Shown here: positions 1,245 through 38,389 of the stretch, one piece after another
How the letters are laid out: each line of letters opens with the position of its first letter
Position numbering within the stretch: the first letter of the stretch is position 1
Assembly: GCA_902525935.1 (NCBI GenBank)
Contig: CABZJA010000003.1
Coordinates: 32,492 to 96,491 of the forward strand
Direction of reading: 5' to 3'
DNA: 64,000 nucleotides
From: an uncultured Pelagibacteraceae bacterium
Lineage (GTDB): Bacteria > Pseudomonadota > Alphaproteobacteria > Pelagibacterales > Pelagibacteraceae
Position numbers and translations under genes: made by a program
The notes under the pieces: model-generated
Database searches by the model: none
What the model was told of the DNA's origin: nothing
Seen by the model: only the letters and a program-made list of their open reading frames with translations

Positions 1245-2725
1245 AAAATTTAACAATTTTAAAACTTGAGTATATTTTTGTTTTTATATACATCTTATTC
1301 CATATTTTCTTTATTAATTTAGACCCAATTAATGATGAATATATATTTTATTCAGGTGCAGATTTTATCGGAACACAAAATATTGAAATCATAAATATAT
1401 TTTTTGATTATAATGCAAATACGCTCGGTTTTTCTTACCTAATTTTTATTTTTTCAACCATTTTCAATACAGATAATTTCTATTTAATAGGTAAAATTAT
1501 ATCTTTAAGCAGTTATATCTTCCTTTATTTTGGAATTTTGAATTTTATTAAAATATTTGAAATAAAAAAAAAATTTGAAATATTAATTATTATTTTTCTT
1601 TGTCCTATAGTTTTTACATATGGCTTTAGAGCAACTCCAGACTTATTTTCTTTTTGCCTGGCATTTTTTTCATTTTCTTTAATTTTAATAAAAAAAAAAA
1701 TAATTATAAAACTTTTAGCATTTTTTTTATTATCTATAGCATTTGTAATAAAGCCAATTAATGGAATTGCTCTATTTTTCGTATTTTTATATTATTTTCT
1801 TTTTAATAAAAAAAAAATTTTCCAATTAGAAAATATTATAGGTGTTATTTTATTCTTTTTATTATCTACAACTTTTTTTTATTTAAATTATAAAAATCAT
1901 GGATTTGCAATAATTTCTCCAAATTGGAGAAATCTAGATACTTCGGAAAACAATTTTCTTGTAAATTTTATATATTACCTTGGTTTTTTAAATTTAGTTA
2001 TTTTACCATTTAATTTTAAATTTATTTTAAAAGAAATTCTAAATTTAAAAAACTTTGTTTTATTTACATTAATAAGTTTAACAATTTTTTCTTATCAATT
2101 TATTCACATCAGTGAGAGCATAAATGAAATTAATTTTGGTTTTTTATCAGATGGTTTAAATGAATATATTTTAAAATTATTTTTTGGTTTAAATGCTTGT
2201 TTTTTTATTTTCTTTTTTTTTATATCTATTTCTACAAAAAATAGAAATCACACTCTCTACTTTATTTTAATCACTACATTAACTTATTTACTTATAATTT
2301 CTAATTTTAGCCCAGCACAAAGATATTTGATGATTTTATTTCCCACAATTTATCTTTTAGCTTTAAGACAAAATTACCATAAAATAATTTATATTATTGT
2401 TTTACTCACTTACTTTGTCCTTAATTTATTAATTTTGAACAATCATTTAGTCATAAGTGACTTATCAAAAAAAACACATAATTTTTTAATTAAAGAGGGC
2501 TTATTAAATCAAACTCACCCGGGTTATTTTGGTCAACACTCTCTATCTAGATTTGCTAAATTTTATGACAGTAAAATGAATATAATAAGTCAAAATAATA
2601 TATTTGATCAGAAAAAGAAATATATAATTACAAATGAAATTAAAAGTTATGAAAATGTAATTTTTTCATACTCATCAAATAAATTTTTAATTAATAGAGA
2701 AATATTTGTAGTTTTAAGAAATTGA
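1241..2725 (+). CDS. Multi-span membrane glycosyltransferase, GT-C/GT39-like
   Basis: The protein has 494 residues and about ten or more hydrophobic spans. The first large outside loop carries an acidic DPINDE motif, as expected for the metal or lipid-phosphate binding loop of GT-C enzymes. YGFRA and the later AQRYL motif are shared with the protein at 29152-30687, so the two are paralogues. GT-C enzymes take a sugar from polyprenyl-phosphate and add it to a glycan outside the membrane. Its start overlaps the upstream GT2 synthase by 4 bases. Its 3' end overlaps the convergent radical SAM gene by 12 bases. Family membership is inferred from topology and motifs; the acceptor is unknown. Confidence 0.65.
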   Translation: MKNLTILKLEYIFVFIYILFHIFFINLDPINDEYIFYSGADFIGTQNIEIINIFFDYNANTLGFSYLIFIFSTIFNTDNFYLIGKIISLSSYIFLYFGILNFIKIFEIKKKFEILIIIFLCPIVFTYGFRATPDLFSFCLAFFSFSLILIKKKIIIKLLAFFLLSIAFVIKPINGIALFFVFLYYFLFNKKKIFQLENIIGVILFFLLSTTFFYLNYKNHGFAIISPNWRNLDTSENNFLVNFIYYLGFLNLVILPFNFKFILKEILNLKNFVLFTLISLTIFSYQFIHISESINEINFGFLSDGLNEYILKLFFGLNACFFIFFFFISISTKNRNHTLYFILITTLTYLLIISNFSPAQRYLMILFPTIYLLALRQNYHKIIYIIVLLTYFVLNLLILNNHLVISDLSKKTHNFLIKEGLLNQTHPGYFGQHSLSRFAKFYDSKMNIISQNNIFDQKKKYIITNEIKSYENVIFSYSSNKFLINREIFVVLRN

Positions 2726-4276
2726 AGAGTGCTTTAATTCGAAATCCTCGATAATTTTTCTTTTTAATTTTATTTTAGACATATTTAGAATATTTTCTTT
2801 TGCTTTTTCTCCAAACTTACTTTTTATTTTATCTAAAAAATTTTTGTTAGTATGATACTCAAAATAATGGTTATCTCTTAATTTAAGAATTTCAGCTGGA
2901 TCCAAACTATCAGTTGGTAAAGGTTGTGTGTTATATGAATGGAAAGAAAAATCTTCGTATTTCTCTGGTAATTTATAATTTTTTTCTAATGCTTCTTTGT
3001 ACAACGCACTTCCTGGCAATGCCATAGCTGCATATGTATTCCAACCAAGAGTATTTAGTTTTTTACTTAATTTAAATGTCTCATTAATTGTATCTTTAGT
3101 ATCTCCAGGTAGACCATAAATATAATTTGCCATTATTTCAATTCCACTTTCGTGGACTTGATTTACAACTTTATTTATATCTACATCTTCAAATTTACCC
3201 TTTGAAACTTCTAATCTTATTTTTTTATCACCACTTTCAATCCCAAGACACAGCCATTTTATTCCTGCAGATCTCACTAATGATAAAATATTTTTTCTTC
3301 TTAAAGTATCGACTCTGGAATAAGCCCACATTTTTAATTCATCATTTTTATTAAGCTTACTTAGTTTCTCGCACAAAGGAATATAATATTTTGGATTTAG
3401 CAAGAACATTTCATCCACAATTCTAATAGTCTTAACCCCATAATTATAAAGTTTCAAAAATTCACGAAAAATAAATTCAGTACTCCAAAATCTCATCTTA
3501 CTATAATTACTTGCAACACCAATTTCTTCATTATCATTTCTATTAATAATGTTTATCATACAAAAACTACATCCAAACTGACAACCCAAAGATGTTTGTA
3601 TAGCCGCGTAAGGACTTCTATTTTCTTCCAAGTATTCAGCGTGCCACATTGGAGCCCTGTATAAATCAAATGGTTTTTTATTTTTTGGCAATAAATCCCA
3701 AGCATATCCTGGCAAATCTATATCCATTCTATCTTGAGGCACAATCTTCTCTGGTGGTGTTAATTTGCAAGTATTATTTTCTCTGTAACCAATACCCTTA
3801 ATGTTTCGTAAATCTTCTGAATTGAAATTTTCAAGTCTTAGTAAGTTATGTAGAGTGTATACACCTTCGTTTGTACATACAATATCAACGCTCTTTTCAT
3901 CCTCTAAAGTTTTTAATGGCAAAGCTTGAATATAAGAACCTACAAAAATTATTGGACTTTGAATTTTATTTAATTTTATATGATTTGCTAATTGAACAGC
4001 TCCAACCATATTTGTAGTACCTGCATTTACATTCTGACCATATACTACAAAGCACAATAATCTTGGTTCCAACTGTCTAATTTTATTTAAACATTCAACA
4101 TTATCTAATTGTTCTGCATTTGCATCAAGAATACCAACTTTGAAATTTTTTGATCTACAAGACTCCGCTAAAAGTAATGACCATGTTGGTGGTTCAATTG
4201 CTGAATAATTTTTTGAAAGATCTTGGTATACTTTTTTTGAGCTATTTGGTGTTATGAATAGTATATCAATTGACAT
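2714..4276 (-). CDS. Cobalamin-binding-domain radical SAM protein
   Basis: The protein has 520 residues. Residues 1-150 resemble the Rossmann-like B12-binding domain of class B radical SAM enzymes (ILFITPN near the start, a PPTWSLLLAES helix). The classical DxHxxG ligand motif is not seen, as is common in this class. The radical SAM core follows with CxxxCxxC at C232, C236 and C239 for the [4Fe-4S] cluster, and downstream SAM-contact stretches including GIESGD and YGLPGDT. Members are methylases, cyclases or ring-modifying enzymes (BchE/HpnP-like). In a polysaccharide island, C- or P-methylation of a sugar or lipid is a plausible but unproven role. Its start overlaps the STELLO-like gene end by 11 bases, implying co-transcription. 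Confidence 0.85.
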   Translation of the reverse strand: MSIDILFITPNSSKKVYQDLSKNYSAIEPPTWSLLLAESCRSKNFKVGILDANAEQLDNVECLNKIRQLEPRLLCFVVYGQNVNAGTTNMVGAVQLANHIKLNKIQSPIIFVGSYIQALPLKTLEDEKSVDIVCTNEGVYTLHNLLRLENFNSEDLRNIKGIGYRENNTCKLTPPEKIVPQDRMDIDLPGYAWDLLPKNKKPFDLYRAPMWHAEYLEENRSPYAAIQTSLGCQFGCSFCMINIINRNDNEEIGVASNYSKMRFWSTEFIFREFLKLYNYGVKTIRIVDEMFLLNPKYYIPLCEKLSKLNKNDELKMWAYSRVDTLRRKNILSLVRSAGIKWLCLGIESGDKKIRLEVSKGKFEDVDINKVVNQVHESGIEIMANYIYGLPGDTKDTINETFKLSKKLNTLGWNTYAAMALPGSALYKEALEKNYKLPEKYEDFSFHSYNTQPLPTDSLDPAEILKLRDNHYFEYHTNKNFLDKIKSKFGEKAKENILNMSKIKLKRKIIEDFELKHSSIS

Positions 4277-5459
4277 TCTTATTTTTAAAAGTTTTTTTTA
4301 TTTGAAATAACCAATTTTCATATTCGGCAATATACTTATATATATATATTAAAGATTTTTTTCTTCTTTCATCAATTTCAATATTTGAAATTGCCTGATA
4401 ATGTCTAATTTTTTTTAAATTTTTTTTTCTAACTTTTAACATTTTTTCTATAGAATCTTTAAAACTCTTACACAGTTCAATAAAAGTATCTACTCTGTTT
4501 GATTTACTTTTCAGTTTTATTTTCTCTAATATCTCTGCAAATAGGTCTGTAGAAATATTATGTTCTTTTTCAAGCTCATAATCTTTCCAATAATCATGTT
4601 TATTTCTGATCTGAGTTATGATTGGAGGTCCATAGGATACAGTTTCATTAAATTTATAAGCAACTTTTTCTAATAAATAACTAGTCCATATATCGGAGTT
4701 TCTCCCTCCAGCCAAAGGTTTGAAATATAAAGGAATATAAGATTTTCCTACACTCGTATTCTGATCATTTAAAGGAAAAAAGTTTTCGTTGCTAAGAGCA
4801 AAATGGGTTTGACTTTTAACTTTTAATGTTTCAATTGGCCAAAATAGTCTTGATGTTGCATCTATGTCTGGATCACCGAGTATATAACCGCAATTTGCAA
4901 TAATTTTTTTTTCAATAAATTTAATTTTAAATTTGTTTGCTTTCAATTTTCTATTCTTCCATGGAAAACCTCTTGGATAAAAAGGTACATCACTTCTCTC
5001 TTTAAAGTATTTATATAAATTTGGCCATTTGTCATTTGAATAAATTGTTTTAATTTTAACTTTTGAATTTGTTAAACTATGACCTCTAAGAAAATTTTTA
5101 TTTTTATCTACATAATTATCATCATCAATAAAGACAACCTTGTCTGGCAGATTATCAAATAAATAAATTGATCCTAGTAATTTTCGTACCGCATCATTTA
5201 AAGGAAAAAATTTATAAAGTTTTTTGTATTTCTTCAAAAAAAATTTATTCTGAAATTTTATATCCATGAATAATATTTTGTATCCAAACTTTTTAGAAAG
5301 TTTATTGCAATATCCAAGAGCTTCTTTTGGTGTTTTTAAATCACCAATTACAATTATTGAATTTTTATCTTTTCTATGTTTATATTTTTTTAAATTCTTA
5401 CATATTCCTTCGAGGAATGTTGGAATATTTATCGTTGTTGTAATTATAACATTTTCCAT
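4266..5459 (-). CDS. STELLO/DUF288-like putative glycosyltransferase (copy 1)
   Basis: The protein has 397 residues and looks soluble. It shares a set of motifs, in order, with the protein at 28230-29150: TTIN-PT at the start, GDLKTP (residues 40-45), a metal-binding-type DDDN (112-115), GDPDIDA, a QNT stretch, a DIWxSY motif and a late N-x-HD. This pattern fits the STELLO/DUF288 group, which is related to GT-A transferases. Its C-terminal region (about residues 310-397) is an extra lysine-rich helical part that the shorter copy lacks. It lies between the radical SAM and the GHMP kinase genes on the same strand. The sugar and acceptor are unknown. Confidence 0.65.
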   Translation of the reverse strand: MENVIITTTINIPTFLEGICKNLKKYKHRKDKNSIIVIGDLKTPKEALGYCNKLSKKFGYKILFMDIKFQNKFFLKKYKKLYKFFPLNDAVRKLLGSIYLFDNLPDKVVFIDDDNYVDKNKNFLRGHSLTNSKVKIKTIYSNDKWPNLYKYFKERSDVPFYPRGFPWKNRKLKANKFKIKFIEKKIIANCGYILGDPDIDATSRLFWPIETLKVKSQTHFALSNENFFPLNDQNTSVGKSYIPLYFKPLAGGRNSDIWTSYLLEKVAYKFNETVSYGPPIITQIRNKHDYWKDYELEKEHNISTDLFAEILEKIKLKSKSNRVDTFIELCKSFKDSIEKMLKVRKKNLKKIRHYQAISNIEIDERRKKSLIYIYKYIAEYENWLFQIKKTFKNKNVN

Positions 5460-5470
5460 AATTTTAAGAT

Positions 5471-6463
5471 TTAATTAGAATGGATAATTGCTGAGCATTC
5501 ATTTGTAAAGTTAAATTTGGTAATATAAAAATTTCTCATCTTTCTTAAAAAATTTTTATGTTTATTTTTTGAGCAATAAAACAGTATAAATCCTCCACCT
5601 CCAGCACCCAATAATTTTCCACCGAGAGCCCCAGAATTCAACCCTTTATTATAGATGCTATCAATTTTCTTATCGCTAACAGAACTAGATAGACCTTTTT
5701 TTAACTCCCAATAATTATTTAAAAGTTTACCTATATTATCTATATTCTTATTATTTTCAAAAATTTCTAAAGCTTTATTTGTGATTTCAAGTATTTCAAA
5801 ATACTTTTTTTTATTTTTTTTTATATTGTTGATTTTTTTTTTTTCAATTTTTGATGCATATCTTGAATTCTCTGTATAAACCAAAAAAAAATTATTTTCT
5901 AAAGCTTTTAGTTTTGTTTTTGATATCTTTATCTTTCTAACAGTTATTTTATTTTTTTTGAATTTAATCAAATTAAATCCACCGTAAACAGCCAAAGTCT
6001 GATCTTGACATCCTACAGCCTCATTAAGATAACCTCTCTCTAAAGTAATACTTTTTTCCAAAAGTTCTTTTTTTGTTAATCTCTTTTTTTTGTATTTATG
6101 TATTGTTTTAATTAAACTAACAGTAAATGATGAGCTTGTGCCTAAACCGGACTTCGCTGGCATGTCGGCATCATAGTTTAAATTTATATAGGGATTTATT
6201 TTATATATTTTGTAACAAGCTCTTATTACAGGATGTTGAATTTTGTTGACTCTGTTTACTTTTTCTATTTTTGAATAATGGACTTCAAACTTATGGTTGT
6301 GAAATTTTGGGAGATCTCTAAGTGTTATATAGCAGAATTTGTTTATTGAGCCCCCAATTATCATTCCTTCATTCTTATTGTAAAATTCTGGAAAATCTGT
6401 GCCTCCTCCAAAAAGAGAGACTCTGAAGGGAGTTTTACAAACTATCATCAAAATCTTATACAT
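5471..6463 (-). CDS. hddA: GHMP kinase, D-glycero-D-manno-heptose 7-phosphate kinase-like
   Basis: The protein has 330 residues. It has the GHMP pattern of sugar kinases: an N-terminal TPFRVSLFGGGTDF substrate loop typical of HddA, the ATP-binding PAKSGLGTSSS, and the C-terminal LLGAGGGGF. HddA phosphorylates D-glycero-D-manno-heptose 7-phosphate at C1 on the route to GDP-heptose. A fused HddC-GmhB gene at 12039-13208 supplies the next two steps, which supports this call over a fucose kinase. No gmhA isomerase is seen in the window. Two in-frame ATGs are available, the second at 6448; the second starts just before the conserved TPFR. It is divergent from the transketolase pair. Confidence 0.7.
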   Translation of the reverse strand: MYKILMIVCKTPFRVSLFGGGTDFPEFYNKNEGMIIGGSINKFCYITLRDLPKFHNHKFEVHYSKIEKVNRVNKIQHPVIRACYKIYKINPYINLNYDADMPAKSGLGTSSSFTVSLIKTIHKYKKKRLTKKELLEKSITLERGYLNEAVGCQDQTLAVYGGFNLIKFKKNKITVRKIKISKTKLKALENNFFLVYTENSRYASKIEKKKINNIKKNKKKYFEILEITNKALEIFENNKNIDNIGKLLNNYWELKKGLSSSVSDKKIDSIYNKGLNSGALGGKLLGAGGGGFILFYCSKNKHKNFLRKMRNFYITKFNFTNECSAIIHSN

Positions 6464-6581
6464 TATTAAAAATAATTTGTAATTTAAATTAATCTTAATG
6501 TTAGATTATTAAAAAACATAAAGATATTGAAATTTAATTTAATTAATTTAATAAGAACTAGGTTTTAATTAAAATATTAAC

Positions 6582-7418
6582 GTGAAATCAAAATATTCAT
6601 ATCTCATAAAAAAGTCAAAGTGGTTAAGAAGTGAAATTTTTGAGATGGTTGTGAAAGTCAACCAAGGCCACATAGCTTCCTCATTATCCCAAGCTGAAAT
6701 ACTTATTTCACTTTATTACGGTGGAACATTAAATATTAAAAAAAATCAACCCAATTATGAAAAAAGAGACAGAGTAATTGTAAGTAAGGGTCACTCAGCC
6801 ATGGGTGCATATCCAATCTTTGCAGATTTAGGATACATAAAAAAAAACGAATTAGAAAAATATGGAACTCCAAAAGGAAAATTAAGAATATATGGAGATA
6901 AAAGTATACCTGGGGTTGAAACAACGTCTGGATCTTTAGCGCAAGCTCCTGGTATAGCGAGTGGGTTCGCATATTGTAGTAAAAGAGATAAACAAAATTT
7001 TTACACTTATGTTATTTTAAGTGACGGTGAACATTATGAAGGGCAACTTTGGGAAACTGCGCTATTTGCATCTCATTACAAACTGGATAACTTAGTATTT
7101 ATAGTTGATAGAAATAAACAAATAATTTTAGGAAAAAACGAGGAATTATTAAAACTCGAACCTCTTGATAAAAAATGGAAAAGTTTTGGCTGGAATGTAT
7201 TTAACATCAATGGACATAAATATTCAGAGATAATTCCAGTTTTAAAAAAAACTAAAAAGTTAAAAAATGGAAAACCGACTTTAATTATTGCAAACACCGT
7301 TAAAGGAAAAGGTGTTTCATATATGGAGGATGTAACAAGATGGCACAATACTATGCCAAACAAAAGTCAAATTGAAATAGCAAGACAAGATTTAAAGAAA
7401 AATTGTATTTATGAGTAA
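6582..7418 (+). CDS. Transketolase N-terminal subunit (split transketolase)
   Basis: The 278 residues cover only the thiamine diphosphate-binding half of transketolase. Visible are HIASSLSQAE near the start, SKGHS, GSLAQAPGIASG, and the diphosphate/Mg motif SDGEHYEGQLWE with the downstream DRNKQ. The usual first Gly of GDGE is Ser here. The start is GTG; no nearer ATG fits. The stop overlaps the C-terminal subunit by 8 bases, so the halves are translated together. The window also has a full-length tkt at 50369-52324, so this pair is likely specialised. It could supply sedoheptulose 7-phosphate for heptose synthesis, or transfer a two-carbon unit onto a keto sugar; both are inferences. Confidence 0.88.
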   Translation: MKSKYSYLIKKSKWLRSEIFEMVVKVNQGHIASSLSQAEILISLYYGGTLNIKKNQPNYEKRDRVIVSKGHSAMGAYPIFADLGYIKKNELEKYGTPKGKLRIYGDKSIPGVETTSGSLAQAPGIASGFAYCSKRDKQNFYTYVILSDGEHYEGQLWETALFASHYKLDNLVFIVDRNKQIILGKNEELLKLEPLDKKWKSFGWNVFNINGHKYSEIIPVLKKTKKLKNGKPTLIIANTVKGKGVSYMEDVTRWHNTMPNKSQIEIARQDLKKNCIYE

Positions 7419-8358
7419 AAATTATTTAGATTTTAAAAGATCATTAGATCTTCCTTTCATGAGAGATATAGTAATTGATAAAATTTATAAGCATTCAAAG
7501 AAAAATAAAGATATATTTTTTGCAACACCTGACATGGGTGCACCAGCTTTAGATGAATTCAGAAAAAAATTACCAGGTCAATTCATTCATTGCGGTATAT
7601 CAGAGCAACAAATGATTTCTTTTGCTGGTGGTCTCGCATTAATGCGAAAAAAAGTGTTTTGCTATGCAATGGCACCATTTATAAATTCTAGATGTTATGA
7701 ACAGATTAAATGTTCAATTTCTGCAATGGATTTAAATGTAAACTTAATTGCAGTTGGTATTGGTATTGGATATGCAGATGCTGGGCCTACGCATTATTCT
7801 ACAGAAGATATATGCATAATGAAAGTATTTCCGAACATAACAATTTATACCCCGTCAGATGATTTCTCCTCTAGCGTGATAACTGACAAGATTATAAAAA
7901 AAAATCATTTTACTTATCTAAGATTAGATAGAGATGCTTTGCCAAATTTATATAATAAAATGAATTTTAACTTTGAAAATGGATTCAATTTTTTAAATAA
8001 AAAAAAAAATAATAAAGTTTGTATAATTACTTGTGGCTATCTAACACATAAAGCTCTTCAAGTTTGCAGATTAATCAATCATAAAGTCGATGTGATAGAT
8101 TTATTTAGAATAAAGCCATTTCCAAAAAAATTAATTTCACAAATAAAAAAATACAAAGAGGTAATTACTTTAGAAGAACAACTTGCGACAGGTGGATTTG
8201 GAGCTTCAATTCAAGAAAAAATATCGGATGAAAAAATGAATATTAAATTAAAAAAATTTTGTCTAGATGATAAATACTACTTTGAAAATGGTGGAAGAGA
8301 ATATCTTCATAATAAATATGGATTATCTCTTAATAAAATTATTAAATATTTAAGATAG
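7411..8358 (+). CDS. Transketolase C-terminal subunit (split transketolase)
   Basis: The 315 residues comprise the Pyr domain and the C-terminal domain of transketolase. The Pyr domain has GISEQQM with the glutamate that activates the aminopyrimidine of thiamine diphosphate, then GYADAGPTHYSTED. The C-terminal part has VIDLFRIKPFP and EEQLATGGFG. It must pair with the product of the overlapping upstream gene to form the active site. Split transketolases occur in secondary-metabolite and polysaccharide clusters, where some transfer glycolaldehyde or hydroxyacetyl units to unusual acceptors. An epimerase gene follows 16 bases later on the same strand. Confidence 0.88.
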   Translation: MSKNYLDFKRSLDLPFMRDIVIDKIYKHSKKNKDIFFATPDMGAPALDEFRKKLPGQFIHCGISEQQMISFAGGLALMRKKVFCYAMAPFINSRCYEQIKCSISAMDLNVNLIAVGIGIGYADAGPTHYSTEDICIMKVFPNITIYTPSDDFSSSVITDKIIKKNHFTYLRLDRDALPNLYNKMNFNFENGFNFLNKKKNNKVCIITCGYLTHKALQVCRLINHKVDVIDLFRIKPFPKKLISQIKKYKEVITLEEQLATGGFGASIQEKISDEKMNIKLKKFCLDDKYYFENGGREYLHNKYGLSLNKIIKYLR

Positions 8359-8374
8359 TTTAAATTTAAATTAA

Positions 8375-8878
8375 ATGTTGAAAGCTTCAATAAATAAGTT
8401 TGATAATGAAATTAAAATTTATACCTCCAAATCATTTAATGATTTTCGTGGTCAATTATGGACTAGTTGGGACCATAAAATAATTAAACTAAATTTTAAT
8501 CATGATAAATTTTCACTATCAAAAAAAAATGTAATAAGAGGTTTCCATGGAGATAAAAAAACATGGAAATTAATTTCATGTGTATATGGGAAAATTTTAT
8601 TTGTAGTCGTAAATTTTAAACCAAAAAGTAAAAAGTATTTAAGTCACCAATCATTTATTTTATCAGATAAAAATAAAAAAACTGTTTTAGTCCCACCAAA
8701 CTATTTGAACGCACACCTTTGTCTGACAGAACAATGTCTTTTTCATTATAAACTTTCCTATAAAGGTAAGTATAATGATGTTAAAGAGCAATTTTCTATT
8801 CCATGGAATGATAAAAAAATAAATTATAAATGGCCAATAAAAAAACCAATTTTGAGTTATAGAGACAAGAATGATTGA
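8375..8878 (+). CDS. RmlC-like nucleotide-sugar 3,5-epimerase family protein
   Basis: The protein has 167 residues and a cupin fold of the dTDP-4-dehydrorhamnose 3,5-epimerase family: DFRGQLWTSW, then NVIRGFH with the conserved histidine, the WKLISCVYGKI strand, VLVPPNYLNAHL and YKLSYKGKY. RmlC-type enzymes invert C3 and/or C5 of a 4-keto-6-deoxy nucleotide sugar. The family signature is partly degenerate compared with canonical RmlC (GFHGDKKTWK in place of GLHxQ-type), so the substrate may be GDP- rather than dTDP-linked, in line with the neighbours. It overlaps the GT10 gene by 8 bases. Confidence 0.75.
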   Translation: MLKASINKFDNEIKIYTSKSFNDFRGQLWTSWDHKIIKLNFNHDKFSLSKKNVIRGFHGDKKTWKLISCVYGKILFVVVNFKPKSKKYLSHQSFILSDKNKKTVLVPPNYLNAHLCLTEQCLFHYKLSYKGKYNDVKEQFSIPWNDKKINYKWPIKKPILSYRDKND

Positions 8879-9902
8879 GGTCTCGGCGATTGTTCAGCAA
8901 GATTATACAAAAAATCTTTTCTTTGACTCTAAGATGCCACAAGTTATTCCAAATAAAATTTCCATTCCAAGAGACGATAATAATGAGTGCTTCAAAATAT
9001 TTAAAAAAAAACTTTTTGAAAATGGCATTAACATAAATACCCATGATCTTGTTGATCAAACCAAAATAGATTTAGAGATCTTTTTTCATTTTAACTTTAA
9101 CGTAAAAAAAAAAAAAATTATCAAATATTGTGTTTGGCCTGAAGCGCCAGAAATTTATCCGAGGAATGCTAGCTCTCAATTAGATAAAGATTTTAATAAA
9201 ATATTTACAACTTTTGATAACGATGTTGATAACAAAAAATTTTTTCCAATAAAATATCCTATTAATTTTAGAAATTCTATAAATCCAAAATTTAGTGAAA
9301 GAAAAAAACTTTGCTGTATATTATCAAGTAACAAAACTTTATCCGTTAATTCTAGCAATTCAGGATATTCTGAAAGAGTAAAAATTATAAAATGGTTTGA
9401 AAAATATAACCCACTAGATTTATCATTATATGGTGTTGGCTGGAATGGCTATTTTTCTTCTAATTATTATTTAAATCGATATTTTCGTAGACTAATAAAT
9501 AAAATATACACAAAAAAAATTAGTGTTTATCAAGGTGTAGCTACATCTAAATCAGAAATATATCAAAATCACAAATTTTCAATTTGCTACGAGAATGTCT
9601 TAGGCAAATCAGGCTATTTTTGTGAATTGATATTTGACTCTATGAACAATGGATGTATTCCAGTTTATCTAGGATCTTCAAATGTAACAGAATACATTCC
9701 TCAGAACTGCTTTATTGACAGAAGAAACTTTACTAATAATCAAGAACTTTTAAATTATTTAAAAAATTTTAAAGAAGGAGATTATAATAATATGCAAGAT
9801 AATATAAATAACTTCTTAAAAGAGCAGACTAATCAAATATTTTCAGTTGAATTCTTTGCAAACCAAATTATTAAACATATTAAAATAGATGTGTGCAGTT
9901 AA
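8871..9902 (+). CDS. GT10 family (alpha-1,3-fucosyltransferase-like) glycosyltransferase
   Basis: The protein has 343 residues. The GT10 donor-binding signature is clear: KFSICYEN (residues 235-242), then CELIFDSMNNGCIPVYLGSS and EYIPQNCFID about residues 251-283. GT10 enzymes use GDP-beta-L-fucose. The neighbours suggest the donor here may be another GDP-deoxysugar, such as a colitose- or deoxyheptose-type sugar. A run of 14 A (9104-9117) sits in codons 78-82, so a one-base slip would truncate the protein before the catalytic domain. The start overlaps the epimerase gene by 8 bases; the next gene begins at 9904, one base after the stop. Confidence 0.85.
   Translation: MIEVSAIVQQDYTKNLFFDSKMPQVIPNKISIPRDDNNECFKIFKKKLFENGININTHDLVDQTKIDLEIFFHFNFNVKKKKIIKYCVWPEAPEIYPRNASSQLDKDFNKIFTTFDNDVDNKKFFPIKYPINFRNSINPKFSERKKLCCILSSNKTLSVNSSNSGYSERVKIIKWFEKYNPLDLSLYGVGWNGYFSSNYYLNRYFRRLINKIYTKKISVYQGVATSKSEIYQNHKFSICYENVLGKSGYFCELIFDSMNNGCIPVYLGSSNVTEYIPQNCFIDRRNFTNNQELLNYLKNFKEGDYNNMQDNINNFLKEQTNQIFSVEFFANQIIKHIKIDVCS
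9104..9117 (+). repeat. A14 homopolymer inside the GT10 coding region
   Basis: Fourteen consecutive A bases encode the KKKK stretch near residue 80 of the GT10 transferase. Such tracts are prone to replication or transcription slippage. A change of length not divisible by three would shift the frame before the catalytic part. Confidence 0.9.
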
Positions 9903-9903
9903 T

Positions 9904-11097
9904 ATGAGCTATCAAAAAATAAATCATAAACTTATGCAATCAAATTTTTCTAAGGATGATTTTAAAGTTTTAGAAAAATTTTTTAAAAGAGCTAATGAAA
10001 AAACAATTTTGACACAAGGCCCAAAAGTTAAGGAATTTGAAAAAAAATGGTCTAAGTGGTTGGGTGTAAAATACAGCACTTTTGTTAATTCCGGATCATC
10101 AGCCAACCTTTTAAGCTTGAAAATACTTAAAATAATAAAAAAAAAAAATACAAATGAAATTATAGTACCTACACATACTTGGGTATCAGATATTGCATCT
10201 GTTATACAGAACAATTTCAAACCAGTATTTGTCGATATGGATTTTAAACATCTTGGACCAGACAATGATCAAATAATTTCTAAAATTAATAAAAAAACCG
10301 CTGCAGTTTTTGTTTCTCATATTCAAGGATTTAATGCACTTAGTACAAAAGTCATAAATCATTTAAAAAAAAAAAAAATACATTTAATTGAAGATGTATG
10401 CGAGTCTCATGGTGCACTTTTTAAAAATAAGAAGCTAGGAACATTTGGTTTAATTTCTAATTTTTCATTTTATTATGCACATCATATGTCAACTATTGAA
10501 GGGGGAATGATATCGACTAATAATAGAGAAATATATGAGTTATCAAGAATTTTAAGATCACATGGAATGGTGAGAGAAATCGAAAACATGAAAATTAAAA
10601 AAAATTATATAAAAAAATATAAAAATTTGTCTGAAAAGTTTATTTTTTTACATGATGCTTATAATATGAGAAATAATGAAATTGGTGCATTACTTGGCAT
10701 TAATCAATTAAAAAAATTAGATCAAAATAACAAAAAAAGAATGGATAATTTAAGTTTTTTTTTGAAAAATTTAGACACATCAAAGTATCTTACTAATTTT
10801 AATGTTGAAGGAAGTTCTAACTATGCTTTTCCTCTCATTATAAGAAAAAAATCAAAAAAATTTTCTATAAAATTAGAAAAAATTTTATCAAAAAATAATA
10901 TTGAGTTTAGAAGAGGAGGTGCTGGTGGGGGCAATCAATTAAGACAGCCTTATTTAAAAAAATATGTAAAAAATATACAAATTTCTAAATTTAGAAATGT
11001 TGAACACATGCATTTTTTTGGATATTATTTGGGAAATTTTCCAACACTGAGAAAAGAAAAAATAAAAAAAATATGTCAAATAATAAACAATATTTAA
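9904..11097 (+). CDS. ColD-like PLP-dependent sugar 3-dehydratase (DegT/DnrJ fold)
   Basis: The protein has 397 residues from the ATG at 9904; an in-frame ATG at 9889 would overlap the GT10 gene by 14 bases. Fold motifs include LTQGP, SGSSANL, IIVPTHTWVSD and EDVCESHGA. Where aminotransferases carry the PLP lysine it has histidine: SFYYAHHMSTIEGG, with the key His at residue 193. This substitution marks the 3-dehydratases ColD (GDP-4-keto-6-deoxymannose) and RfbH/E1 (CDP sugar). The E1 [2Fe-2S] cysteine cluster is not seen, so it is closer to ColD, which removes the 3-OH without iron-sulfur. Its expected product is a 4-keto-3,6-dideoxy sugar, probably GDP-linked given the neighbours. Confidence 0.82.
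   Translation: MSYQKINHKLMQSNFSKDDFKVLEKFFKRANEKTILTQGPKVKEFEKKWSKWLGVKYSTFVNSGSSANLLSLKILKIIKKKNTNEIIVPTHTWVSDIASVIQNNFKPVFVDMDFKHLGPDNDQIISKINKKTAAVFVSHIQGFNALSTKVINHLKKKKIHLIEDVCESHGALFKNKKLGTFGLISNFSFYYAHHMSTIEGGMISTNNREIYELSRILRSHGMVREIENMKIKKNYIKKYKNLSEKFIFLHDAYNMRNNEIGALLGINQLKKLDQNNKKRMDNLSFFLKNLDTSKYLTNFNVEGSSNYAFPLIIRKKSKKFSIKLEKILSKNNIEFRRGGAGGGNQLRQPYLKKYVKNIQISKFRNVEHMHFFGYYLGNFPTLRKEKIKKICQIINNI
10365..10378 (+). repeat. A14 homopolymer inside the ColD-like coding region
   Basis: Fourteen consecutive A bases encode KKKK just before IHLIED, upstream of the catalytic histidine. A slip would inactivate the enzyme. It is the second A14 tract in two adjacent genes of one sugar pathway. 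Confidence 0.9.
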
Positions 11098-12032
11098 ATA
11101 AAAAGATTTTAATAACTGGAGGTGCTGGATTTTTAGGATCAAAACTTGCTACAAAACTAGTTTTTGAAAATTATTTAGTTACTGTAATTGATAAACAATT
11201 ATATTCGAACACATCTTTAGATCATTTAATTCCATACTCAAATTTTATTTTTATTAAAGGCGATGTCAGAGATAAGAAACTAATGAAAAAAATATTAAAA
11301 AATCAGGACTTTGTAATTCCTCTGGCAGCCTTAGTAGGTGCCCCTTTGTGTGAAAAAAATAAAAGATTGGCTACTGAAACCAATTTGCTTGCTGTCAAAT
11401 TTATTATAAATAATATAAAGAAGTCAACAAAGATCATAATACCAAGCACAGAGTCTGGTTACGGCAAGACAAAAAAAAATGTAGTATGTGATGAAAATAC
11501 TCCCGTAAATCCAATATCTCATTATGGTAGAACTAAGTTAGACTCTGAAAAATTAGTATTAAAAAGGAGAAATTCTGTAGTTTTGAGATTAGGGACTGTA
11601 TTTGGTTTATCTTATAGATTTCGACAAGATCTTTTAGTTAATAATTTAGTAACAAAAGCAGTAAAGGATAAAAAATTAGATATATTTGAAGGACACTATA
11701 GAAGAAATTTTATATCAATCGAAGATGTAATAAATACCTTTTTACATATAATCAAAAATTTTAAAAATTTTAGAGATGAAATTTTTAATGTCGGATTAGG
11801 AGACGGAAATGTCACTAAAATTGAACTTGCAAAAATAATAAAAAAACATGTAAAAGGTCTTAAAATTGTTGATAATAAAAAAAAAAAAGATCCTGATCAA
11901 AGAGACTATTCTGTCAGTAGCAAGAAACTAGAGAAAAGAGGATATAAACCTAAAATAACATTATCAGAGGGCATTAGTCATCTTGTCAAATTTCTAAATA
12001 AAAAAAACTTCAACAATAATTTTAATTATTAA
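11073..12032 (+). CDS. NAD(P)-dependent epimerase/dehydratase/reductase (SDR)
   Basis: The protein has 319 residues and is an extended SDR. The NAD-binding TGGAGFLG is at residues 15-22, then GDVRD, AALVGAPL, an STESGY catalytic stretch and YGRTK (Tyr151, Lys155). The start overlaps the ColD-like gene by 25 bases. It shares the AALVG motif and overall layout with the SDR at 21618-22568, suggesting paralogy. Position after a 3-dehydratase makes a 4-ketoreductase (ColC-like role) or a 4,6-dehydratase reasonable; motifs do not decide. It converges on the HddC-GmhB gene with a 6-base gap. Confidence 0.75.
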   Translation: MSNNKQYLNKKILITGGAGFLGSKLATKLVFENYLVTVIDKQLYSNTSLDHLIPYSNFIFIKGDVRDKKLMKKILKNQDFVIPLAALVGAPLCEKNKRLATETNLLAVKFIINNIKKSTKIIIPSTESGYGKTKKNVVCDENTPVNPISHYGRTKLDSEKLVLKRRNSVVLRLGTVFGLSYRFRQDLLVNNLVTKAVKDKKLDIFEGHYRRNFISIEDVINTFLHIIKNFKNFRDEIFNVGLGDGNVTKIELAKIIKKHVKGLKIVDNKKKKDPDQRDYSVSSKKLEKRGYKPKITLSEGISHLVKFLNKKNFNNNFNY

Positions 12033-12038
12033 AGATAA

Positions 12039-13208
12039 TTATATTTTTTTTAATAACTTATCGATATATAAAAATCTAATACTCGATCTTTTTGCCATTT
12101 TCTCATCTAAAACAGAATCGCCTACTACCAAACTTTTAGATTTATTAAATTTCCAAAATTTTTCTAGTTGTTTTATCATTAGTATCCCCGGTTTTCTAAA
12201 ATCGGAATTTTTTTTATACTTTTTTATCTTTGCATTAGGATGATATGGACAAAACATAACATCATCTATAAAAATATTTTTTTTAATTAATTTTTTTTTT
12301 AAAAATTGCTGGAAATTAATAAAATCTTGAATTTTAAACAAGCCTTTTGCAATGCCCGCTTGATTTGTAACAATAAATTTAAAATAATCTTTATTAGATA
12401 AATATTTCAGATATTTTAAAATTTTAGGTTTAAATCTTAGATCTTTTTTTTTATACGTGTAACCTTTATCAATATTAATAGTATTGTCCCTATCAAGAAT
12501 TATTGCTGGTCTAAAAAAAAAATTATTCAAAGTTTTTCCGCTTAATTTTAATTTATTTGGCGTTCCAATATCAATGAAAATATTACTGAAAAATAATCCT
12601 CCAACTTGATTATTGTTTATAAGATTATTATTTAAATAATTTTCCCAAGAAAAAACTTTTTGTTTATTTATTTTTAATAATTTTTTTTTGATAAAATATA
12701 TTCCTCCATTCATATATTTTGTATTTTTGTTTGAATTTGAAATAATTTTATTTTTCAGTTGCAAATTAATTAACTTTTTATTTGATGAGTAATATTTTTT
12801 ATTTGTTAATGCAATATTAACTAATTTTTTCTTATTAGACAAATTTACAAATTTTTGTAAATTTATTGGAAAAAAAGTATCTGCATTTATTAAAACAAAA
12901 TCATTTTTAATTTTTCTTTTTAGATTAAATATAGCCCCGCCGGTACCAAGAAGTTTTTTCTCGACTATGACTTTAACTTTGCAGAAGTTGAAATATTTAT
13001 TATTATATTTTTTTTTTATTTTCCAACCTCTATAACCTGCCAGAATATAAATATCACCAGTGATGTACTTCGAATAATATTTGAGTAATATTTCTATAAA
13101 ACTTATATTATTTATTTTCACTAATGGTTTTGGGTCACCATTTAAATATTTTTTAATCCTTGTACCTTTTCCCCCAGCTAAAAATACCAAATCAATTTTT
13201 TTAAACAT
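12039..13208 (-). CDS. Fused nucleotidyltransferase-HAD phosphatase (HddC-GmhB-like)
   Basis: The protein has 389 residues in two domains. Residues 1-225 are a sugar-1-phosphate nucleotidyltransferase (AGGKGTRI at 11-18, DPKPL near 25-29, LLGTGGA, NAD for metal). Residues about 232-389 are a HAD phosphatase of the GmhB type: DRDNT nucleophile motif (Asp239, Asp241), TNQ (281-283), RKPG and VGDSVLDE. Together they would remove the 7-phosphate of heptose 1,7-bisphosphate and attach GMP, giving GDP-heptose. In canonical GmhB a zinc is held by CxH and CxC; here CPYH is kept but the second pair reads SDF, so zinc binding is probably lost. It converges with the upstream SDR. Confidence 0.8.
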   Translation of the reverse strand: MFKKIDLVFLAGGKGTRIKKYLNGDPKPLVKINNISFIEILLKYYSKYITGDIYILAGYRGWKIKKKYNNKYFNFCKVKVIVEKKLLGTGGAIFNLKRKIKNDFVLINADTFFPINLQKFVNLSNKKKLVNIALTNKKYYSSNKKLINLQLKNKIISNSNKNTKYMNGGIYFIKKKLLKINKQKVFSWENYLNNNLINNNQVGGLFFSNIFIDIGTPNKLKLSGKTLNNFFFRPAIILDRDNTINIDKGYTYKKKDLRFKPKILKYLKYLSNKDYFKFIVTNQAGIAKGLFKIQDFINFQQFLKKKLIKKNIFIDDVMFCPYHPNAKIKKYKKNSDFRKPGILMIKQLEKFWKFNKSKSLVVGDSVLDEKMAKRSSIRFLYIDKLLKKI

Positions 13209-21617: not shown

Positions 21618-22568
21618 ATGAAAATATTAGTTGTAGGTGGAGCTGGTTATGTCGGTGGATATGTTACCGACTTAATTCTAGAAAATAAAACCGACGATGT
21701 AATTGTCTTTGATAATTTATTATATGAAGCTCAATATCAAAAAAATGTAAATTTTGTATATGGTGATATAAGAGATAAAAAATTACTTAAAAAGTATTTG
21801 GACTGGGCAGATGCCGTAATTTGGATGGCCGCTTTAGTGGGTGACGGTGCATGTAGCATAAATCCCTCTATAACTAACGATATTAATTTCAAATCAGTAG
21901 AGTTTTTATCAAATAATTTTAGGGGAAAAATAATTTTTTTTTCCACTTGTAGTGTTTATGGTGCACAGAATGATGTTTTAAACGAAGATTCAAAAACAAA
22001 TCCTTTATCAGTATATGCGTCAACCAAACTACAAGCGGAAAAGTTATTATTAAATAATGATGCATTGATATTTAGACTTGGAACTTTGTTTGGTGTTGGA
22101 GATTTATTTTCTAGGATAAGAATGGATCTAGTAGTAAATGTTTTAACAGCCAAAGCAATTCTTGAGAAAAAACTTACAGTATTTGGTGGAGCACAATATA
22201 GACCTTTATTACATGTAAAAGATGCTGCAAGAATAATAAGGGACTCAATACTCTCAAAAAATAAAGGCATTTATAATTTACACTTGGAAAATATTAAAAT
22301 AATTGATTTAGCTGAAAAAATTCAAAAACATTTTAAAGATGTTGAGATTGAAAAAGTAAATATAAAATTTCAAGATGCAAGAAATTATAGAGTTGATGGT
22401 TCTAAACTAAAAAAAGATTTTGATTTTGTTCCGAAATATTCAGTAAATGATGGAATAGAGGAAGTAAAAAATTTAATACTTGAAAATCGAATTAAAGATG
22501 TAAATGATCCCAGGTATACAAATCAAAAATATCTAGAAATATTTAAAACCAAACTAAATATTGATTAA
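21618..22568 (+). CDS. NAD-dependent epimerase/dehydratase (SDR)
   Basis: The protein has 316 residues. VGGAGYVGG (residues 6-14) is the NAD loop, followed by GDIRD, AALVGDGAC, FSTCSVYG and YASTK (Tyr133, Lys137). It is similar in layout to the SDR at 11073-12032. It begins a tight run with a cupin, an RmlD-like reductase and a 2-epimerase, so it probably works on the same nucleotide sugar. It lacks the WbjB/FnlA-type N-terminal TGGTGSFG signature, so it is not a clear member of that 4,6-dehydratase/5-epimerase family. Its C-terminal tail (about 296-316) extends past the usual end. Confidence 0.78.
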   Translation: MKILVVGGAGYVGGYVTDLILENKTDDVIVFDNLLYEAQYQKNVNFVYGDIRDKKLLKKYLDWADAVIWMAALVGDGACSINPSITNDINFKSVEFLSNNFRGKIIFFSTCSVYGAQNDVLNEDSKTNPLSVYASTKLQAEKLLLNNDALIFRLGTLFGVGDLFSRIRMDLVVNVLTAKAILEKKLTVFGGAQYRPLLHVKDAARIIRDSILSKNKGIYNLHLENIKIIDLAEKIQKHFKDVEIEKVNIKFQDARNYRVDGSKLKKDFDFVPKYSVNDGIEEVKNLILENRIKDVNDPRYTNQKYLEIFKTKLNID

Positions 22569-22987
22569 TGAAACCCATCTTAATTATTGGAGGAATATCA
22601 AAAGATAATAGAGGAAGCGTCTCATTTAATAATAATCTGGATCTAAAGCATGTAAAAAGATTTTATATTGTTAAAAATAAAAAAAAAAATTTTGTGCGAG
22701 CTTGGCATGGACATAAAATAGAGGCAAAATATATTCTTTGTTTACAAGGTAAGGCAAAAATTTCTGCTGTAAAAATTAATAATTTCCAAAATCCTTCAAG
22801 AAAAACAAAAGTTTACTCATGGATAATTGATAATAAAATACCAAATGTAATTTATATTCCACCAGGATATGCTAATGGCTCTAAATCCTTATCCAAAGAT
22901 ATGAAGTTAATGGTATTATCAACTACATCCTTAAAAAAAAGCTTAAAGGACGATTATAGGTTTCCTAAAGAAATTTGGAAAATTTAA
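22568..22987 (+). CDS. Cupin, RmlC-like sugar epimerase domain protein
   Basis: The protein has 139 residues and forms a single cupin domain: DNRGSVSF near the start, KRFYIV, then RAWHGHK with conserved histidines, LQGKAKIS and IPPGYANG. This pattern belongs to the RmlC-like sugar epimerase group and resembles the C-terminal cupin of FnlB/Cap5F, which epimerises C3 of the 4-keto intermediate. Here it is a separate protein. The start overlaps the SDR stop by one base and the reductase gene follows 3 bases after it. Confidence 0.72.
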   Translation: MKPILIIGGISKDNRGSVSFNNNLDLKHVKRFYIVKNKKKNFVRAWHGHKIEAKYILCLQGKAKISAVKINNFQNPSRKTKVYSWIIDNKIPNVIYIPPGYANGSKSLSKDMKLMVLSTTSLKKSLKDDYRFPKEIWKI

Positions 22988-22990
22988 TTA

Positions 22991-23896
22991 ATGAAAAAAA
23001 AAGTATTAATTATTGGTTCTACGGGAATGCTCGGATCTGCTGTAATTAATCAATTTATATTAAATAAAAAAATAAATTTAAGTGCGACTTATAGAGAAAA
23101 AAAGGATTTGAATATTTTAAAAAAAATTCTAAAGTTTAAAAAACCGCGAGTTAAGTGGATTAAATTTTCTATTAAAGGGAATTATGAAAAGAAACTAAAA
23201 AAAATACTCAAAAATAAAGATTATATAATAAATTGCACAGGTATTATAAAACCTTATATTAATGAAAAAAAATTTAAATCAATTAAAGAAGCAATATTGA
23301 TAAACTCAATATTTCCTCATAATCTAAACAATTTGAAGGAAAAAAATACAAAAATTTTGCAAATAGCAACAGATTGTGTGTACGATGGAAAAGAGGGTTT
23401 TTATAAAGAGTCTTTTTCTCACAATGCGACCGATGTATATGGAAAATCTAAAAGCCTAGGCGAGGTAGACTCTGAAAATTTTTTTAATATTAGATGTTCA
23501 ATAATTGGAAAAGAGATAAAAGGTTTTAAATCTTTAGTAAATTGGTTTCTATCTAACAAAAAAAATTCTAATTTAAATGGGTTCTCAAATCACTTGTGGA
23601 ATGGAGTAACTACAAATTTTTTTGCTAAGTTTTTATTAATTTTAATTATAAAAAACGTTAAAATACCCAATTTAATACATCTTACTCCATCTAATTATGT
23701 CAATAAGTATGAATTATTAAAAATTTTTGCGGAAAAACTGCAAAGAGTGGATCTTCAAATTACAAAATCTAAGTCAACAAATAAAGTAAATAGAGTTATA
23801 ATTACAAAACATAAAAAATTGATACAAAAGATATCTAATTATATGGGTTTTAAGTCAATTCCTTCAGTAAAAAAAATTATAGACGAAACTCTGTAA
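22991..23896 (+). CDS. RmlD-like 4-keto sugar reductase (SDR)
   Basis: The protein has 301 residues. The NADP loop is IGSTGMLGS, then NCTGIIKP, QIATDCVYDG, YGKSKSLGE with the catalytic Tyr and Lys, and a GFSNHLWNGVT substrate stretch, all as in dTDP-4-dehydrorhamnose reductase and the N-terminal domain of FnlB/Cap5F. It would reduce the 4-keto group of a deoxy or acetamido-deoxy nucleotide sugar with NADPH. Together with the adjacent cupin it would equal a Cap5F split into two genes. The 2-epimerase gene follows 3 bases later. Confidence 0.8.
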   Translation: MKKKVLIIGSTGMLGSAVINQFILNKKINLSATYREKKDLNILKKILKFKKPRVKWIKFSIKGNYEKKLKKILKNKDYIINCTGIIKPYINEKKFKSIKEAILINSIFPHNLNNLKEKNTKILQIATDCVYDGKEGFYKESFSHNATDVYGKSKSLGEVDSENFFNIRCSIIGKEIKGFKSLVNWFLSNKKNSNLNGFSNHLWNGVTTNFFAKFLLILIIKNVKIPNLIHLTPSNYVNKYELLKIFAEKLQRVDLQITKSKSTNKVNRVIITKHKKLIQKISNYMGFKSIPSVKKIIDETL

Positions 23897-23899
23897 TAA

Positions 23900-37787: not shown

Positions 37788-38389
37788 TAGGAATTATAGA
37801 TTATGGCCTTGGTAATATTAAAGCTATTTCAAACATATATAATAAACTTAAAATTGATAATATAATTTTAAAATCATCTAATGATTTTGAAAAAGCTGAT
37901 AAACTTATTTTGCCAGGAGTGGGAGCTTTCGATAGTGCAATAAGAAATCTAAAAGAAAATAATTTCTTTGAAAAAATAAATTCTCTAGTACTGAAAAAAA
38001 ATACCAAAATTCTAGGTATCTGTGTTGGAATGCAGACATTTGCTGAAGTAAGTGAAGAAGGTAGCTTAAGTGGTTTGGAATGGATATCAGGTAGTGTCAA
38101 AAAATTTGAAAAAAATAATAACTTCAGATTACCTCATATGGGATGGAACTCTATAAAAAAATTAAAAAAAAATATCCTTTTTGATGATATAGATGATGGA
38201 GAGTATTTTTATTTTTGCCATTCCTATTATTTTAATTGTGTTGATAATAATCACATAATTACAGAAACAAATTTTGGTTCTAATTTTGCAAGTTCAATAA
38301 ATTATAATAATATTTATGGTATTCAGTTTCATCCAGAAAAAAGCCATGATAACGGTATAAAAGTTTTAAAAAACTTTGCGAAATTATAA
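37784..38389 (+). CDS. hisH: HisH2-type glutamine amidotransferase for sugar amidation
   Basis: The protein has 201 residues and is a class I glutamine amidotransferase: IIDYGLGN at the start, GVGAF, nucleophile Cys80 in LGICVGMQ, and His183 with Glu185 in QFHPEK completing the triad. It hydrolyses glutamine and passes ammonia to its HisF-type partner. The start is GTG, overlapping the WbpG stop. Placement between wbpG-like and hisF-like genes, with no other his genes around, shows a role in acetamidino sugar synthesis rather than histidine synthesis. Confidence 0.88.
   Translation: MIGIIDYGLGNIKAISNIYNKLKIDNIILKSSNDFEKADKLILPGVGAFDSAIRNLKENNFFEKINSLVLKKNTKILGICVGMQTFAEVSEEGSLSGLEWISGSVKKFEKNNNFRLPHMGWNSIKKLKKNILFDDIDDGEYFYFCHSYYFNCVDNNHIITETNFGSNFASSINYNNIYGIQFHPEKSHDNGIKVLKNFAKL

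Follow-up and report, generated by a model that had tools for sequence, protein, structure and literature searches.

A candidate pathway to a GDP-linked branched higher sugar in a SAR11 polysaccharide island, with related cassettes in other bacteria and phages

A sugar gene block in a SAR11 polysaccharide island

The window analysed here, a stretch of 64,000 nucleotides from an uncultured Pelagibacteraceae bacterium (contig CABZJA010000003.1, positions 32,492 to 96,491), is part of contig C3 of a 1.06 Mb genome in 41 contigs that is 77% complete. Its subject of interest is a block of sugar genes between positions 2714 and 13208 (Table 1). A sequence-only reading had described the eight open reading frames (ORFs) from 5471 to 13208 as a module that could serve to make and transfer a GDP-activated 3,6-dideoxyheptose-type sugar. 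All eight lie where that reading placed them, and their family assignments hold in profile and solved-structure matches. The limits drawn for the module were too narrow, since the radical SAM gene radSAM1 belongs to it, and a likely role of the split transketolase was also overlooked.

The eight-protein module is real: it is intact, conserved in a close relative and located inside a polysaccharide island whose genome is of the SAR11 type. Judged by this locus, the nearest relative is another Pelagibacteraceae genome (L110), in which the ten genes of the block have an identical arrangement and amino-acid identities of 61-87%. Between the two, nonsynonymous divergence is low and synonymous divergence high (dN 0.09-0.29 versus dS 0.99-2.89), dS being near saturation, so that only the direction of dN < dS is meaningful. 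The GC content is 26%. Upstream of the window, a 16S-tRNA-tRNA-23S run (L002:2956-7599) precedes the first polysaccharide genes, and the last of them lie near a 5S gene (window 39353-39467), a placement that agrees with the SAR11 hypervariable island, found between 23S and 5S.

Table 1. Genes of the block, with positions in the window and the profile or structure match behind each assignment (SDR, short-chain dehydrogenase/reductase; PLP, pyridoxal phosphate; ThDP, thiamine diphosphate).
Feature	Position	Strand	Match
radSAM1, radical SAM protein with N-terminal B12-binding-like domain	2714..4276	-	Radical_SAM 8.2e-16
STELLO-like protein	4266..5459	-	STELLO 2e-6, 27.3 bits, below cut-off 27.8
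HddA-like D-glycero-D-manno-heptose 7-phosphate kinase (GHMP type)	5471..6463	-	NF049969 1.9e-41, 142.6 bits, below cut-off 600
Split transketolase N-terminal (ThDP-binding) subunit, TKN	6582..7418	+	Transketolase_N 2.1e-31
Split transketolase C-terminal subunit, TKC	7411..8358	+	Transket_pyr 1.2e-23, Transketolase_C 7.2e-16
RmlC-like C3/C5 epimerase, GDP-4-keto-heptose type	8375..8878	+	closest solved structures
GT10 (fucosyltransferase-type) glycosyltransferase	8871..9902	+	Glyco_transf_10 3.6e-11
ColD-like PLP-dependent sugar 3-dehydratase with catalytic His	9889..11097	+	ColD 2gms 2.6e-50
Cj1427-like SDR, proposed GDP-heptose C4-dehydrogenase	11073..12032	+	6vo6 7.2e-79
HddC (guanylyltransferase)-GmhB (phosphatase) fusion	12039..13208	-	GmhB_yaeD 1.8e-30, HddC NF049965 1.6e-28, both below cut-offs

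Among solved structures, the best relative of HddA is 4n3o (6.3e-32), versus 2e-14 for mevalonate kinase and 5e-11 for fucokinase. The HddC half of the fusion matches 5xhw and 6jq8, both named as 6-deoxy-D-mannoheptose pathway proteins, at ~2e-17, and the fusion also matches 3l8e. The concern that HddA and HddC might side with fucose or mannose enzymes is thus not borne out, their best matches being heptose enzymes by match ranking rather than by tree. There is, as the sequence-only reading stated, no gmhA in the window. A phosphoheptose isomerase gene lies on the same contig, 3.6 kb before the first base of the window (L002:15337-15933; NCBIfam phosphoheptose isomerase 7e-53, below cut-off) and next to a sialic-acid-synthase-like gene, and with it the contig encodes the whole GDP-heptose route. 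All four activities, GmhA, HddA, GmhB and HddC, are encoded close together at the level of family matches.

The epimerase is closest to 7ani (1.9e-42), named as a 4-keto-rhamnose epimerase, and to the GDP-D-glycero-4-keto-heptose epimerases 8dak, 8dco and 8dcl (2.0-2.2e-42), with RmlC 1dzr at 6.6e-16. The ColD-like protein aligns a His with that of 2gms, at a position where two other ColD entries differ (Asn in 3b8x, Lys in 2r0t). Of the 135 homologue entries scoring 200 bits or more (duplicate genomes included), 134 keep this catalytic His and one lacks the motif, and a divergent DegT protein of the SAR11 locus L070 (36% identity) carries the same HH motif.

The SDR matches 6vo6, which we take to be Cj1427, at 7.2e-79, with the next-best solved match at 1.5e-28, and it is not closest to 4,6-dehydratases. 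Its active-site motif is TESGYG in the window and in L110, and TNS[GA]YG in 89 of 107 entries (duplicates included). By these matches it resembles a heptose C4-dehydrogenase, the role proposed here; enzymes of the Cj1427 type oxidise C4 by means of bound NADH and alpha-ketoglutarate. The window indeed contains no clear 4,6-dehydratase, and neither was a GDP-mannose 4,6-dehydratase (GMD) above cut-off found in the 77% complete source genome (TIGR01472 reaches at best 17.8 bits against 415, at the SDR itself). The C4-reductase of the Campylobacter jejuni HS:5 pathway belongs to the GDP-fucose-synthase class; no member of this class was found in the block, and the SDR at 27247-28233 scores 87.8 of 500 bits.

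This family evidence makes GDP-heptose and 3-deoxy chemistry likely. Of the GDP-3,6-dideoxyheptose suggested earlier, the GDP-heptose and 3-deoxygenation parts are supported by heptose enzymes as closest solved relatives and by the catalytic His; the 6-deoxy part is not supported, the SDR being 6vo6-like and no GMD having been detected, and a 3-deoxy product is likelier than a 3,6-dideoxy one.

Distribution in bacteria and phages and the exchange of two ThDP enzymes

ColD homologues (E <= 1e-60) occur in 19 of 297 Pelagibacterales genomes, source genome included, so the module is an accessory trait. A TKC search of 397 genomes gave matches at 1e-22 in 104, full-length transketolases among them, and the best-scoring places among these matches were taken as 40 split-transketolase regions. 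The SAR11 set comprises the window, L023 (from the ColD search) and L070-L074, all with TKC of at least 40% identity. In all seven of these loci radSAM1, HddA and the Cj1427-like SDR are present, radSAM1 having 62-68% identity in the other six; ColD of at least 60% identity is found in six, the window included, L070 being the divergent one. The controls were 37 other split-transketolase loci (the 35 loci L075-L109, plus L032 and L034), and in none of them does radSAM1 reach 300 bits or the SDR 200 bits; ColD was found in two, HddA in one and an E1-type match in two.

Run against a wider set of named genomes, the radSAM alignment returned 149 relatives, of which the best 80 were analysed; 76 of these loci have radSAM1 of at least 300 bits in an intact ORF, and many are contig ends. 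Among the 76, HddA is present in 53, ColD in 52, the SDR in 51, HddC in 41 and a GDP-fucose-synthase-like SDR in 28. The combination of radSAM1, a ThDP enzyme, ColD, SDR and HddA is found in 38 of the 80 loci, from five phyla, and in 0 of the 37 controls. One nine-gene order recurs in seven loci, from Bradyrhizobium, Vibrio, Methylobacter (three), Rhodocyclaceae and Chlorobiaceae, and the ThDP pair is separated from ColD by 0 or 1 gene in 46 of the 51 loci having both. The co-occurrence in relatives' genomes for which the sequence-only reading had asked therefore exists. radSAM1 is a conserved member of the module, and radSAM1 with the ThDP enzyme is its tightest pair.

The predicted structure of radSAM1 is confident (pLDDT 93.3), and of 148 homologue entries, counted with duplicates, 141 carry the CxxxCxxC motif. 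Its B12-binding domain scores 4.8e-7 (30.1 bits versus a cut-off of 32.1). The nearest solved structure is AprD4, a sugar 1,2-diol dehydratase (profile E 1.2e-20; fold Z 29.6, root-mean-square deviation 2.9 over 414 aligned residues; next Z 26.3), which shares the closest fold and a sugar substrate, but at 19% identity. radSAM1 falls outside the NCBI family of AprD4 (52.7 of 500 bits) and outside those of the cobalamin-dependent, ring-forming HpnJ and BchE (121.3/577.6 and 99.5/481.35 bits), although the latter two are its best NCBI profiles. HpnJ catalyses the last step toward the hopanoid cyclitol ether (PMC12583986), and according to PMC13142503 every known non-methylating cobalamin member has a part in ring formation or rearrangement. 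With these scores, fold and precedents, deoxygenation, ring closure and methylation are all possible as the radSAM1 reaction. A B12 methionine-synthase domain was found in 0 of 61 SAR11 genomes (only 10 of them at least 90% complete), which is no more than a hint that radSAM1 works without B12. Among plasmids, four records carry radSAM1 at 36-39% identity (E <= 1e-60); the one among them that was inspected, from Azospirillum lipoferum, has a GDP-L-fucose synthase, a radical SAM protein and a kinase, with no transketolase or E1 protein in its annotation table, which is incomplete.

The ThDP enzyme of the window has the architecture of a split transketolase, with Transketolase_N on one chain and Transket_pyr plus Transketolase_C on the other, and its C-terminal subunit matches the split transketolase 6yaj in the PDB (1.1e-34). 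Many loci without a transketolase have instead two small ORFs in the operon, which in L177, a Nitrospira locus, match E1_dh (5.4e-16) and Transket_pyr (6.4e-11) and whose best NCBIfam profiles are pyruvate dehydrogenase E1 subunits; this E1 pair is, by its profiles, a predicted minimal E1-type ThDP enzyme. Among the 76 bacterial radSAM1 loci, 35 have only the transketolase and 32 only the E1 pair, none has both, and nine have neither. A single order can hold both types, as in Pelagibacterales (12 transketolase, 12 E1), Nitrospirales (1 and 4) and Puniceispirillales, or SAR116 (1 and 3). A quick radSAM1 tree of 77 rows, 68 of them with a label, shows 14 changes of type, of which well-supported branches require at least eight. 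Since replacement is frequent and co-presence was not seen in these loci, the two unlike enzymes most likely fill the same kind of role. In the TKC tree, 86 of the 87 rows with a nearby radSAM1 fall in one 91-row branch (100/95; duplicates included), the other five rows of which are viral with a weaker radSAM; L187 stands outside it.

Two further loci, L032 and L036, combine ColD, an RmlC-like gene and split-transketolase subunits of another kind with a true GMD, which at 467 and 460 bits exceeds the cut-off of 415. No HddA or HddC was detected in either (L036 ends after TKN), and they look like a hexose version of the module. L034 likewise carries a split transketolase together with ColD and an RmlC-like gene; its one tested SDR gave no NCBIfam match at 1e-20.

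Viral versions were collected in two sets with some shared contigs: 60 IMG/VR contigs found with TKC, and the best 80 of 381 relatives from a radSAM scan, 78 of which have radSAM1. The order radSAM1-TKN-TKC-HddA-ColD-SDR is unbroken in 16 of the 60 contigs (within L190-L222), and radSAM1-E1a-E1b-HddA-ColD-SDR in three of the 80 (L331-L333). Among the 78 viral radSAM1 loci, 42 have only the E1 pair, 15 only the transketolase, one both and 20 neither.

The flanks of L190 are T4-like, with a major head protein (1e-155), scaffold, tail tube, helicase, SbcC/SbcD-like proteins and late sigma factor. L331 agrees with it in families and in their order, as the cassette there is preceded by major head protein, tail tube and helicase and followed by late sigma factor, SbcD and SbcC. 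In both, the cassette begins one small ORF after the helicase gene, and the late sigma factor gene follows directly (L190) or one small ORF on (L331). These matching flanks mean that the ThDP enzymes have been exchanged within one phage cassette at one genome position. HddC and GmhA did not pass the thresholds in any viral locus scanned, so phages would depend on the host for both. In the named phages, TKC matches (E <= 1e-20) were found in nine of 50,697 records, none above 28.3% identity. L190 also encodes a homologue of beta-glucosyl-HMC alpha-glucosyltransferase (1e-46); use of the cassette in phage DNA modification is possible.

A proposed branching pathway and its alternatives

From gene content, families, the catalytic His, co-occurrence and the interchangeability of ThDP types, all direct results, we infer a set of reactions, their order, a branch point and a product. 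With moderate confidence, we propose that the block 2714-13208 together with gmhA is a pathway to a GDP-linked branched higher sugar of a cell-surface polysaccharide, with ThDP-dependent two-carbon branching at C4. GmhA, HddA, GmhB and HddC would convert sedoheptulose 7-phosphate to GDP-D-glycero-D-manno-heptose, the Cj1427-like SDR would oxidise C4, and the ColD-like enzyme would remove the C3 hydroxyl to give GDP-3-deoxy-4-keto-heptose. The split transketolase would then place a two-carbon hydroxyacetyl unit on the C4 ketone, giving a 4-C-branched nine-carbon sugar on which radSAM1 may perform a further radical step. The RmlC-like enzyme would set the configuration at C5 (or C3/C5), and the GT10 protein is the best candidate for transfer of the product. 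GT10 homologues (31-33% identity) are found in L023/L140 and L118, with a match also in L110, and some of the SAR11 versions may ordinarily rely on GT10 for transfer.

Parts of this scheme have precedents. The sequence-only reading knew of no pathway joining these steps, yet GDP-3,6-dideoxyheptoses of C. jejuni HS:5 and HS:11 are made by GmhA, HddA, HddC, a 4,6-dehydratase, a PLP-dependent C3-dehydratase, a C5-epimerase and a C4-reductase (PMC10440746, 2023). The module shares with it GmhA, HddA, HddC, a predicted PLP-dependent C3-dehydratase of the ColD type, an epimerase and the GDP carrier. In the HS:5 route a 4,6-dehydratase acts first and a C4-reductase last, whereas the module has the Cj1427-like SDR, no GMD that we found, and in addition the split transketolase and radSAM1. 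The Cj1427 C4-dehydrogenase and the HS:5 C3-dehydratase together yield GDP-3-deoxy-4-keto-heptose in vitro (PMC10680097); there, enzymes from two serotypes were mixed and C4-reductases followed, whereas here the genes stand together with a ThDP enzyme.

For the branching itself, YerE of yersiniose A biosynthesis adds two carbons to a CDP-3,6-dideoxy-4-keto sugar (PMC12247030). Both it and the module would use a ThDP enzyme to put two carbons on a nucleotide-linked 4-keto-3-deoxy sugar. YerE is of the decarboxylase type and acts with pyruvate on a CDP-hexose, whereas the module would use a split transketolase or E1 pair on a GDP-heptose; in the window, two transketolase subunits stand in place of a decarboxylase-type ThDP protein like YerE. 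Hydroxyacetyl transfer to a keto sugar is proposed, not proven, for the split transketolases of the miharamycin and amipurimycin clusters (PMC12247030, section 2.3), which belong to Streptomyces secondary metabolism, and for everninomicin it is hypothesised that E1-like ThDP enzymes carry out a two-carbon branching (PMC10338323). In the literature searched, which lacked most subscription papers, no publication was found that brings these genes together. The membership of radSAM1, the ThDP swap and the phage cassettes are what this analysis adds; GDP-3,6-dideoxyheptose pathways were already known.

Several observations weigh against the branching pathway. The donor and the acceptor of the ThDP enzyme are guesses, and the scores of HddA, HddC and GmhB are below the NCBI cut-offs. 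Weaker SDR and DegT relatives (25-36%) are common among the control loci, and ColD is below threshold or missing in 24 of the 76 radSAM1 loci. In eight of the 76 (L117, L118, L124, L130, L133, L139, L141 and L183), radSAM1 is accompanied by a ThDP enzyme but by no HddA, ColD or SDR at threshold; five are short, and L117, L124 and L141 each exceed 21 kb, so that contig ends alone are no explanation. Either the heptose genes of these eight lie elsewhere in the genome or the pair also serves another sugar, and our confidence is slightly lowered because of them. Eight of the nine bacterial loci with neither ThDP type are under 17 kb; L138 is the sole bacterial locus above 17 kb without either, and its gene sizes gave no clear substitute. 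Ten of the 20 such viral loci are at least 17 kb long, and one viral contig (L234 = L307) has both types. In the SAR11 locus L091 (L091:5791-10444) an E1 pair, a distant split transketolase and HddA lie side by side, without radSAM1 or SDR at threshold, possibly as another ThDP-heptose set using both enzymes. The transketolase active site was considered as a sign of a new acceptor and set aside: among the sequences aligned, the positions of the housekeeping active-site His and Asp are changed in module and other split transketolases alike. On the large loci L117, L124 and L141, the radSAM1-ThDP pair may act on other sugars too.

Each alternative explains part of the data. A C. jejuni-like route with an unbranched product (GDP-3,6-dideoxyheptose or GDP-3-deoxyheptose), while the transketolase and radSAM1 serve another product of the island, draws on the match of HddA, HddC, the C3-dehydratase and the epimerase to the HS:5 pathway (PMC10440746), on radSAM1 lying on the strand opposite the transketolase genes in the window and in L070, and on the eight loci with the pair and no detected heptose genes. 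It is unlikely, as the source genome has no GMD above cut-off, the SDR is of the C4-dehydrogenase type, and close TKC, radSAM1, HddA and SDR stand together in 7/7 SAR11 loci and in fixed order in phages. That the split transketolase only boosts the supply of sedoheptulose 7-phosphate, the substrate of GmhA, would fit a transketolase gene adjoining HddA, and transketolases do make this compound. We consider it very improbable nonetheless: the window already has a full-length transketolase at 50369-52324 (Transketolase_N 1.6e-129), in 32 of the 76 loci the transketolase is replaced by an E1 pair, from which sedoheptulose 7-phosphate is not expected, and the presence of ColD, split-transketolase subunits and GMD without detected heptose genes in L032 and L036 argues against it.

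The branch may also be elsewhere on the sugar. Two-carbon ligation to another carbonyl, for example one made by radSAM1 at C6-C7, with the C4 ketone reduced by a fucose-synthase-like SDR, would give a role to the GDP-fucose-synthase-like SDR of 28 radSAM1 loci; radSAM1 is closest to the 1,2-diol dehydratase AprD4, and C6-C7 of a heptose is such a diol. This seems doubtful given the closeness of the ThDP pair to ColD (46/51 loci) and the use of the 4-ketone by known lipopolysaccharide branching enzymes. More speculative, and rather improbable as it stands, is a cassette for a carbocyclic or branched nine-carbon caryose-like sugar, in which either ThDP enzyme would supply two carbons at C4 (hydroxyacetyl from the transketolase, acetyl from E1) and radSAM1 would prepare or make a second C-C bond to the C6-C7 end, closing the ring; in T4-like phages it would serve for decoration of the phage's own surface or DNA, or for changing the host surface. 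Caryose has nine carbons, is 3-deoxy and has an extra C-C bond at C4, as a heptose plus two carbons would give, whereas the transketolase would leave C9 hydroxylated. The resemblance is a lead rather than a test. A link to bradyrhizose, a ten-carbon bicyclic sugar described from photosynthetic strains (PMC4743980), was raised by two Bradyrhizobium module loci and dropped: radSAM1 (E <= 1e-100) is present in three of 146 genomes of the genus of L154, and photosynthetic reaction-centre genes in one of four radSAM1 carriers.

Neighbouring genes and significance

The STELLO-like protein between radSAM1 and HddA has 71% identity to its counterpart at the same position in L110. No further STELLO-like match was found among the other relatives' loci compared for gene content, and its membership of the module is uncertain. 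A second protein reading as STELLO-like, with no Pfam match to it, is encoded at 28230-29150. A row at 21618-24985, with a second SDR, an FdtA/RmlC-like cupin (5e-8), an RmlD-like protein (2e-13) and a UDP-GlcNAc 2-epimerase-type protein (1e-88), is another nucleotide-sugar set within the same island. Beside the 5S gene, at 36651-39153, NAD-synthase-type (weak, 9e-5), class-I glutamine amidotransferase (1e-17) and HisF-type (1e-50) genes stand in a row, presumably a sugar amidotransferase set.

If the branching pathway is true, GDP-3-deoxy-4-keto-heptose, reported from a test-tube mix of enzymes, would be a natural intermediate in many bacteria. The module would also offer a tractable keto-sugar branching system for split transketolases outside antibiotic clusters, a function that is proposed but not proven (PMC12247030). 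That one slot can hold either of two unlike ThDP enzymes, down to a single position in T4-like phage genomes, yields a clean prediction for assay.

SAR11 bacteria are among the most abundant in the sea. Part of the chemistry encoded in their hypervariable surface island would be named by this pathway, and phages would be shown to carry most of a sugar pathway.

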